This document shows positions 17,759-57,495 of a DNA stretch of 64,000 nt, in pieces. The stretch's first letter is position 1; each line of letters begins with the position of its first letter. Where the stretch lies: positions 1,891,001 to 1,955,000 of the forward strand of contig CP018226.1 in NCBI GenBank assembly GCA_016865015.1. The letters run 5' to 3'. The notes under the pieces are model-generated. The model saw only the letters and a program-made list of their open reading frames with translations, did no database searches and was not told the DNA's origin. Made by a program: the position numbers and the translations under genes. The DNA is from Rhizobiales bacterium IMCC20636 (GTDB lineage: Bacteria > Pseudomonadota > Alphaproteobacteria > Rhizobiales > GCA-2746425).

Positions 17759-18328
17759 ATGCTTCTACTAATCCGCAGGATATTGAATCTGGTCGGTAGA
17801 ATTGAACTTGCTACCGCTGTCACAATTCTCGGGGGGATTGTTGTAATCATACTAAGTCAGGTTTTCTCCAGATATGTTTTGGGAAAACCGTTGATCTGGG
17901 CAGAAGAACTCGCAACTTATTTGCTGATCTGGTTGGGATTTGTTGCCGCATCAGCGGCCTACAAGTTGAGGCGGCACATTGCCATTCAAACCTTTCAAAG
18001 CCTACTTCCCGAAACAGCGCTTCGTGTTTCAGGCGCACTCATTCATCTTTTGATCCTGGTCATACTGACAATTGTCATCTGGCACATTCCAGATGCCATG
18101 CGCACAGAACGGATGCAAAGCACCGTTGGCCTGCCGATCAATATTGGGCTTCACTGGTTTTTCACTGTTCCGACTTTGGTCTCCTGCATTTCCATGGGGA
18201 TTTCTGCTCTCTTCTATGCCGCTGACTCCCTGTTTGGCAGCAGAGAGCCACTGCTGGTCGCCCAGATTGATCCAAGTCTGAACGACGACATTCTTCCGGA
18301 CACTCCACACGGAGGAGCAGAAGCATGA
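17759..18328 (+). CDS. TRAP transporter small permease (DctQ family)
   Basis: A 189-residue membrane protein with four hydrophobic segments. FSRYVLGKPLIWAEELATYLLIWLGFVAASAAY is characteristic of DctQ subunits. The C-terminal ~35 residues are a soluble acidic tail. Its TGA overlaps the ATG of the large permease (ATGA). With the DctM protein it forms the sodium-driven translocator fed by the upstream binding protein. Confidence 0.93.
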   Translation: MLLLIRRILNLVGRIELATAVTILGGIVVIILSQVFSRYVLGKPLIWAEELATYLLIWLGFVAASAAYKLRRHIAIQTFQSLLPETALRVSGALIHLLILVILTIVIWHIPDAMRTERMQSTVGLPINIGLHWFFTVPTLVSCISMGISALFYAADSLFGSREPLLVAQIDPSLNDDILPDTPHGGAEA

Positions 18329-53535: not shown

Positions 53536-53804
53536 CTAGAGTATCCGTCTTGCTCAAGCCAGTTTTGGCGTCCATTTTCTATCTTCTTTGATCTGACCTG
53601 AGACCCGTTTCTTCCTCCAAATTTTGATAGAATTCGTCCCAACGATTTGGAGACGAATAAATGAGACGTTCACGGTTCACGGAAGAGCAAATTATCAGGA
53701 TGATCAAAGAGCAGGAGGCTGGAATGCCGACTGCGGAGGTTTGTCGCAAGCACGGCATCAGCACTGCGTCATTTTACAAGTACAAAGCGAAGTTTGGCGG
53801 CATG

Positions 53805-53841
53805 CCCTTTCAGTGATGCAGGCATCACCTGCCGGGTAATA
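53805..53841. repeat. 37-base hairpin insertion 1 inside IS3 OrfA
   Basis: This stretch interrupts the codons expected to read GGM-D-VSDA. Within it GTGATGC and GCATCAC form a perfect 7-base stem with a 2-base loop. It ends with CCTGCCGGGTAAT, which matches the end of the second insertion (CCTGTCGGGCAAT) at 11 of 13 positions. Both begin C(C/A)CTT. Confidence 0.6.
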
Positions 53842-54590
53842 GACGTGTCCGATGCTCGCAGGCTGAAGACGTTTGAAGATGAGAACGCCAAGTTGAAGCG
53901 TTTGTTGGCCGAGCAGATGCTGGATAATGCCATGCTGAAGGACTTGAACTCAAAAAAGTGGTGACGCCCGCCGCCAGAAGGCAAACCGTGGCTCATCTTT
54001 GCAAAGCGCATGGGGTGAGCCAGCGACGGGCGTGTGATGTGCTCAATGTTGACCGATCCAGTGTTCGCTATCGAAGCGTTCGACCTGACGATGAGCATCT
54101 GCGCACAGCCATGAAGAAGGTCGCCGCTGAGCGACGTCATTTTGGCTACAGGCGTATCCACGTGATGCTTGAGCGCCAGGGCATTTTCATGAACCAGAAG
54201 AAGCTAAGAAGGCTTTACCGCGAAGAGAAGTTGCAGGTGCGCAAGCGCGGCGGTCGCAAACGGGCTTTGGGCACGCGCAGGCCTATGGTTCTGCCCAGCA
54301 GAGTCAACGAACGTTGGAGCCTGGACTTCGTGTCGGATGCCTTCACTGACGGCCGCCGGTTCCGCGTTCTGGCTGTGGTTGATGATTACAACCGCGAATG
54401 TCTGGCGCTCGTTGCCGATACCTCGCTATCAGGCCTGCGCATGACTAGGGAGCTGGACACAATTATTGAACGGCGTGGAAAGCCTCGCACAATTGTCAGC
54501 GACAATGGCACGGAGATGACAAGCATGGCCGTTCTTAAATGGTGCCAGGAAAAGGGCGTGGAATGGCACTACATCGCTCCCGGCAAACCC

Positions 54591-54628
54591 CACTTCTCGG
54601 CGGCGCTTCGCTTGCCTGTCGGGCAATG
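54591..54628. repeat. 38-base hairpin insertion 2 inside IS3 OrfB
   Basis: It separates APGKP from MQNG.VESFNG, which are adjacent in IS3-family OrfB proteins. Internal GGC-GG/CTTGCC stretches can fold with wobble pairs. The last 13 bases match those of insertion 1 except for two C/T changes. A missing base in the codons just downstream gives a net frame change of +1. Confidence 0.6.
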
Positions 54629-54895
54629 ATGCAAAACGGGTCGTCGAGAGTTTCAACGGCAGCTTTAGAGCTAAATGTTTGAACGAGACACTCTTCTCAT
54701 CATTACTCCAAGCGCGCCTGCAGATCACCAACTGGAAGGAGGACTACAACCGCCAAAGACCGCATTCATCACTGGGCAATATCACGCCTAGTGAATTCGC
54801 CATGAAAATGGCACTGGAAAAACAGGCCGCACGAGGGCAAAAAGAAACCGACGAGTTCTCCAAATAGCCGGAGGAAAGTCGGGTCTCAGGTCAGA

Positions 54896-56217: not shown

Positions 56218-57495
56218 TCAGGCGAGGGCCTGTTCCAGATCAGCAATGATATCTGCCGGGTCTTCGATGCCGATGGATACGCGCACCACATCGGGGCCAG
56301 CACCAGCCGCTTTTTTCTGTTCATCAGACAATTGGCGATGGGTTGTGGAAGCCGGGTGGATGATCAGGCTTCTCGTATCCCCAAGATTGGCAAGATGTGA
56401 GAACAGTTCGACTTTTCCGACCATGGCAACGCCAGCATCATAGCCACCAGAGACGCCAAAGGTGAACACGGCACCGGCGCCCTTTGGCATGTATTTCTGC
56501 TGAAGCTGATGATAACGATCACCTGGCAGGCCCGCATAGGACACCCAGGCCACCTTCGGATGGTTTGACAGGAATTCAGCCACCTTCAAGGCATTTTCGC
56601 AATGGCGCTGCATGCGCAGGCTCAAGGTTTCGATGCCGGTCAGAATGTTGAAGGAATTGGTCGGTGAGATAGCCGGTCCCAGATCCCGCAGGCCGAGCAC
56701 ACGGCAGGCGATGGCGAAAGCAAAATTGCCGAAAGTTTCTCCAATCACCATGTTGTTGTATTCAGGGCGAGGCTCGCTGAGCATCGGGTAGCGGCCTTCA
56801 CGCATCCAGTCGAATGTGCCGCCATCGACAATGGCACCACCCATGGAATTGCCATGGCCGCCAAGGAATTTTGTCAGGGAATGCACAACGATATCTGCGC
56901 CATGTTCAAAAGGACGGCACAGATAAGGTGTGGCCATCGTGTTGTCGACGATCAGCGGGACACCAGCGCGTTTTGCAATTTTGCTGACCGCTTCCAGATC
57001 GGTCACGACGCCGCCGGGATTTGCCAGGCTTTCGACAAAGATTGCCTTGGTTTTTGGCGTGATTGCATCTTCGAATGAGGACAGATCATCGGTATCCGCC
57101 CACACAGTGTTCCAGCCGAAATTCTTGAAGGAATGGTTCATCTGGTTGATGGAACCACCATACAGTTTCTTGGAGGCGACGATTTCATCGCCAGGCTTCA
57201 TCAATGTGTGGAAGATCAGCAATTGCGCGGAATGACCAGAGGCAACCGCTACCGCTGCCGTGCCGCCTTCAAGGGCAGCAACGCGCTCTTCCAGAACCGC
57301 TGTGGTCGGGTTGGTGATGCGGGTGTAGATGTTGCCGAATGCCTGCAGACCAAACAGGCTTGCAGCATGATCAACATCATCAAACACAAAGGCTGTGGTC
57401 TGGTAGATGGGGGTGACCCGCGCGCCGGTGGTGGGGTCGGGTTTGGCACCTGCATGGACTGCAAGCGTGTCAAATGATGGGCCGTTTTCAGACAT
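56218..57495 (-). CDS. metY: O-acetylhomoserine aminocarboxypropyltransferase / sulfhydrylase (MetY-like)
   Basis: A 425-residue PLP enzyme. [11 protein letters not shown] holds the Lys that binds [38 protein letters not shown] and [10 protein letters not shown]...[24 protein letters not shown] are typical of the Cys/Met metabolism family, and the C-terminal [18 protein letters not shown] matches MetY more than cystathionine synthases. It makes homocysteine from O-acetylhomoserine and sulfide (methionine synthesis). It is a single-gene unit with promoter at 57547-57576 and terminator at 56147-56183. Confidence 0.93.

Follow-up and report, generated by a model that had tools for sequence, protein, structure and literature searches.

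Very small hairpin inserts in insertion sequences of Alphaproteobacteria

Two inserts in an IS3-family element

The window, that is, the whole 64-kb stretch of DNA that was analysed, contains an IS3-family element with an OrfA and an OrfB gene, and two short hairpin stretches lie within these genes (Table 1). This IS is the sole full copy in its own 4.79-Mb genome. It is about 1,300 nt long, compared with about 1,220-1,226 nt in its eight best plasmid relatives. Relative to the related sequences, one base is also missing near 54639, after the second insert. As this adds a further lesion to OrfB beyond the second insert, the copy is judged to be dead by its sequence.

Table 1. Features of the IS3-family element and its two inserts (positions in the window)
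Feature	Position	Strand	Remarks
Host IS3-family element	53592..54895	+	16-nt perfect inverted repeats at both ends
Inverted-repeat arms of the host element	53592-53607 and 54880-54895		16 nt, perfect
OrfA of the host IS	53661..53816	+	TGA inside first insert now ends OrfA (ORFs, alignment)
First hairpin element	53805..53841	+	37 nt, in OrfA, stem GTGATGC/GCATCAC; 43.2 bits
OrfB part, DDE transposase	53958..54629	+	Now terminates at second insert
Second hairpin element	54590..54627	+	38 nt, in OrfB; covariance-model match 54592-54628, 38.2 bits
GATG target motif, 3' junction of second element	54628..54631	+	Alignment, site table
Rest of OrfB	54679..54867	+	ORFs, alignment with relatives

The borders were obtained from an alignment of the window IS with nine relatives, seven of which (L041, L053, L056, L059-L062) lack any such stretch within the IS. 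The extra stretches noticed in the original prediction are thus real; its borders for the first insert were exact, while those for the second (54591-54628) are better drawn one base to the left. The empty sites derived from the relatives are GGCATG|GACGT for the first insert and AACC|GATGCA for the second. Of the other two relatives, L054 (a Rhizobiaceae MAG) carries five related inserts in its IS3 and L055 (Hoeflea alexandrii) a single one, in both orientations. At the IS3 site of the second window insert, L054, L065, L066 and L105 likewise carry an element, as would be expected if the stretch belonged to the IS, yet the seven relatives are empty. Because the site is empty in these seven and the element of L054 at the same site has a different stem, the stretches are insertions rather than an original part of the IS. 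Another element was observed at L041:1449-1485, within what is left of a different IS3 copy and a few bases away from where the window-IS relative in G002 begins.

Sequence, structure and target site of the element family

A first model (R1) was built from eight inserts (two from the window, five from L054 and one from L055), whose alignment shows conserved ends and covariation in the stem. A second model (R2) was trained on 22 elements, with no sequence from the window, L054 or L055. With filters off, R2 recovered the two inserts from the 64-kb window at E-values of 8e-10 (43.2 bits) and 2e-8 (38.2 bits), the next-best match reaching only 13.4 bits; since R2 was trained without these sequences, their detection involves no circularity. 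From the recurrence of the 13-base tail in ordinary sequence one might suspect a chance resemblance between two unrelated decay insertions, but the independent model refutes this explanation, which we regard as extremely improbable. Weak model matches of 12-16 bits at window positions 56698-56737, 58-94 and 18115-18136 were taken as chance.

The family comprises elements of 34-43 nt that consist of CCCTCTC(A/G)GCG, a variable paired stem and CTGCCGGGCAATG. Among 73 non-redundant sites, 43 elements start with CCCTCTC, and 34 end with CAATG and 12 with CAGTG. The element has a single central hairpin, and neither end is the inverted repeat of the other. The original prediction that only the stem structure and the 3' end are constrained therefore has to be extended: the stem is indeed paired but variable and the 3' end constrained, but the 5' end CCCTCTC is conserved as well. 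Its foldable core is unremarkable when each insert is folded by itself (z of -1.25 to -1.41), but was recovered as covariation across the family. Stem covariation was 0.426 in a plain alignment of 22 rows (0.194 shuffled, at most 0.144 slid) and 0.522 in 70 distinct rows fitted to R1 (0.214 shuffled). The case for the structure rests on this family-wide signal and not on single-insert folds. Rfam covariance models gave no match to the elements of six loci at E-values up to 1.

The 13-base tail CCTGYCGGGYAAT has ten exact matches in the own genome, against none for the reversed pattern. The eight matches outside the host IS share no common hairpin by eye, and none scores above 16.1 bits with R2. 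We rejected the tail alone as a family marker, these eight matches being ordinary sequence. A search of the genome with the tail alone therefore does not recover family members outside the IS; the model, however, revealed a third copy at G000:C1:3335085-3335121, inside an IS5-type transposase. The original prediction was essentially right, although the 13-base tail by itself is not diagnostic.

The base preceding the element is C at 50 and T at 14 of the 73 sites, and the four following bases are G at 50, A at 48, T at 42 and G at 39, with the complete GATG at 20. No target duplication was found at the clean sites in the alignments of the window IS3 and of an IS110-type element. In the latter, the junction lies in the noncoding end (L155, L206-L209), the region carrying the bridge RNA in the IS110 family. 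It is empty in three plasmids (L207-L209), where it reads GGCCCT|GATGG or GGCCTT|GATGG, and is filled by three variants, one of 37 nt in L155, one of 41 nt with a different stem in L206 and a third in L085. L085 is the most diverged of the six IS110 sequences and is adjoined by an IS3-type gene. As the filled and empty flanks are alike, these are read as independent, precise insertions without duplication, and we read the pattern as one IS110 site hit independently and site-specifically by three variants. The alignments together show an element that inserts at a C|GATG-like site with no visible target duplication.

Carriers, distribution and possible movement

Transposase sequence was detected within 350 nt of 90 of the 101 copies scoring at least 28 bits (tblastn with elements masked, E up to 1e-3), and for 79 of these the match came through a query from another locus. 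The queries were mostly element-adjacent ORFs verified with Pfam; plasmid pNGR234a proved a poor source of transposase queries and contributed only four genes. Controls gave no transposase match at 28 own-genome loci with the 13-mer only or at 61 window positions (0/89). All 15 own-genus copies above 28 bits fall among the 90. Transposase-type Pfam families were matched by 31 of 40 element-adjacent ORFs (E up to 0.01, with L064 just inside at 0.0096) and by four of ten ORFs in a further set that included expected negatives; L125 is a transposase. Among the families were IS3 (rve, HTH_21), IS5 (DUF4096, DDE_Tnp_1), IS1182-like (DUF772), IS21 (IstB), IS91 (Y2_Tnp, Zn_Tnp_IS91) and IS630-like (DDE_3), the IS names being assigned in this analysis. 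The IS types carrying elements are thus IS3, IS5, IS1182, IS21, IS91, IS630-like and IS110.

Five more of the 101 copies lie in IS DNA by other evidence: L081 by identity, as it repeats the sequence of L092 and L105, L155 by alignment with the IS110 noncoding end, and L103, L097 and L091 as IS3 by eye only. The other six were judged to lie outside IS DNA, with L157 and L163 located on plasmids and L179, L184, L187 and L190 in G317. The 101 still include near-copies (e.g. L116-L119, L108/L109) and leave out ten hits plus a few others below 28 bits, L159, which nearly duplicates L165, and another six copies belonging to the G355 IS5 pair. Outside the 101 there are also L206 (IS110), L213 (G317), L214 (IS5), L215 (intergenic), L216 (one copy beside a transposase match) and L217 (unassigned), five of them plasmid places. 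The copies examined are evidently nearly confined to IS DNA. The original prediction of a palindromic mobile element targeting IS or coding DNA agrees with this for IS DNA, once in an IS noncoding end, but not for coding DNA in general.

Relative to the gene, 57 of the 90 transposase-adjacent copies are sense and 33 antisense, and element length is divisible by three at 19 of the 73 sites. Both orientations and the loss of frame indicate a DNA-level insert that breaks genes. An insert acting at the RNA level and sparing the transposase, either a mini-intron or a translational bypass element, would fit the position in coding sequence and a reuse of sites that resembles homing, but the 33 antisense copies, the noncoding IS110 site and the frame, which is not kept, speak against it. 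We rejected this explanation as very unlikely.

Several interrupted carriers occur in multiple copies. In G120, two IS3 copies that seem fresh apart from the element share 99.7% identity along 1,077 nt and are open on either side of it, and one and the same 42-nt element is present in all five IS5 copies spanning its site. In G355, each of four full IS5 copies carries two elements and none lacks them; these carriers (L178, L183, L186, L189) are nearly identical copies of a 0.93-kb IS5, and the one that was read also has a stop codon. As every full G355 copy bears hairpins, interrupted IS carriers still multiply, and the near-identical copies show that element-bearing ISs have multiplied. The IS1182-type copies of G120, about 73-76% identical, have an identical 37-nt element at a homologous site, which would be due to either repeated insertion or gene conversion. 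At L158:1100-1480, about 150 nt are missing from an IS5 copy between one known element site and another, and we read this deletion as a product of recombination between two elements.

With R1, 15 copies above 28 bits were found in four of the five genomes examined for the family. At least 15 of 199 order-level genomes carry copies (E up to 1e-3), with at least 18 in one, as do at least 8 of 385 class-level genomes (E up to 1e-4), and the genome of L054 has at least 12 (E up to 0.01). These counts, few per genome, are lower bounds, because scoring covered just 17 to 150 of the roughly one thousand initial candidates per genome; the genome samples overlap. Copies are also present on Rhodobacterales plasmids (short-query blastn), from which 15 places were taken for inspection; all 11 places from the first two runs score at least 28.5 bits. 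One 37-nt query gave no match in 20,395 E. coli records, and a gapped pattern search of viral contigs found nothing. G317 has a related subtype with the stem GTGTGC/GCACAC (L179, L184, L187, L190, L213), four copies of which lie by eye between ordinary genes and may represent an intergenic relative. A weak copy of 19.9 bits at L055:83-118 interrupts an apparent tRNA 3' half, in which ARAGORN calls no tRNA.

As for a mobiliser, the own genome has no Y1 transposase (PF01797), and among 15 element-bearing or related genomes Y1_Tnp exceeded the cut-off in three, none of them in the own genus. No element and no parent transposon with the same ends was found near the Y1 genes of these three genomes. 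A Y1/RAYT mobiliser was rejected, being neither correlated with the presence of the element in these 15 genomes nor located near elements.

IS200/IS605 elements move by a chemistry in which the ends form hairpins, a short target motif is constant on one side and no target duplication arises. The fixed motif outside one end, the lack of duplication and the hairpin of the present element recall this chemistry. Taking these observations together, we consider it probable that the two stretches are very small non-autonomous mobile hairpins of Alphaproteobacteria that insert precisely at C|GATG-like sites, prefer ISs and depend on an enzyme supplied in trans. Directly apparent from the sequences are the family with its ends, the covarying stem, sites both with and without the element, the preferred target and the reuse of one site by different variants. 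The enzyme would move the element perhaps as a folded single strand; the element would disable transposases where it inserts and would persist by riding IS copies mobilised in trans. The preference for ISs may reflect targeting of them, a better chance of persisting and spreading when carried by IS copies, or uptake in a donor host.

Alternatively, the hairpins could be passengers, that is, an ordinary REP-like repeat that lies between genes in an unsampled donor lineage, was picked up by tolerant ISs, is immobile in the present hosts and reaches them by horizontal transfer of the ISs. The intergenic-looking copies in G317, the lack of Y1 transposases in the own genus and the multiplication of ISs with elements on board are consistent with such an origin. 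However, the scored candidates of the 199 order-level and 385 class-level genomes (overlapping samples) revealed no genome with many intergenic copies, and five elements within the 1.3-kb IS of L054 and five within about 750 nt of an IS5 in L165 suggest local targeting, so that we hold the passenger origin to be possible but unlikely. Less likely still is a homing or genome-defence system that would recognise ISs of unrelated families as such, noncoding ends included, silence them by inserting at conserved C|GATG sites and spread between IS copies, guided by flanking IS sequence or by the multicopy state of the IS.

Comparison with known systems

We file the present element as a small non-autonomous mobile repeat outside any named family. 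Rickettsia palindromic elements and the small dispersed repeats of cyanobacteria are likewise very small mobile palindromes, some of them inside genes; to our knowledge, neither is known to be confined to insertion sequences. Compared with MITEs, the element has no terminal inverted repeats and no duplication at clean sites. REPs, as characterised in PMC3733652 (which also mentions the Rickettsia palindromic elements) and PMC2817692, are 20-40 bp hairpins with a GTAG or CGTC tag, a constrained end and a variable stem; they are mainly extragenic, often near RAYT genes and present as multiple variants per genome. The present element resembles them in hairpin size class, constrained end, variable stem and several variants per genome. 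In contrast to REPs, it has the ends CCCTCTC and CAATG/CAGTG at most of the 73 sites and no GTAG/CGTC tag, lies mostly beside transposase sequence (90/101, the G317 copies excepted) rather than extragenically, and has no link to RAYT genes (Y1 in 3/15 genomes, with no element in those loci). With the termini of PATEs (PMC3119063) and IS200/IS605 elements, it shares a palindrome, the absence of duplication and a one-sided short motif. However, known PATEs are far longer, apart from 52-bp core-deleted forms, and no related autonomous element was found near the Y1 genes examined.

The open literature yielded no earlier report of such a hairpin largely confined to many unrelated IS families, and four spellings of the 3' tail retrieved no earlier description. 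Few mobile DNA units in bacteria would be as small as this element. Two questions become testable, namely which chemistry brings a 37-base hairpin to C|GATG and why IS DNA is where it comes to lie, and annotators can use the model to spot inserts in broken transposase genes.

By analogy, the closest precedent is the SMRs of Haloquadratum walsbyi, which PMC3119063 describes as elements that have inverted terminal repeats and a length of about 80-110 bp, with no transposase gene and no target duplication. They insert chiefly into IS605-type elements and PATEs, though mostly not in the transposase ORF itself; the authors suggest a defence against transposons, and the mechanism of SMR mobilisation is not established there (PMC3119063). 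Going by that account, both elements are very small, lack a transposase gene and a duplication and reside inside other mobile elements, whereas the present one has 34-43 nt and one hairpin and occurs in many IS families, mostly within transposase genes. Taken with the archaeal SMRs, it suggests by analogy that transposon parasites or silencers may be more general than assumed.
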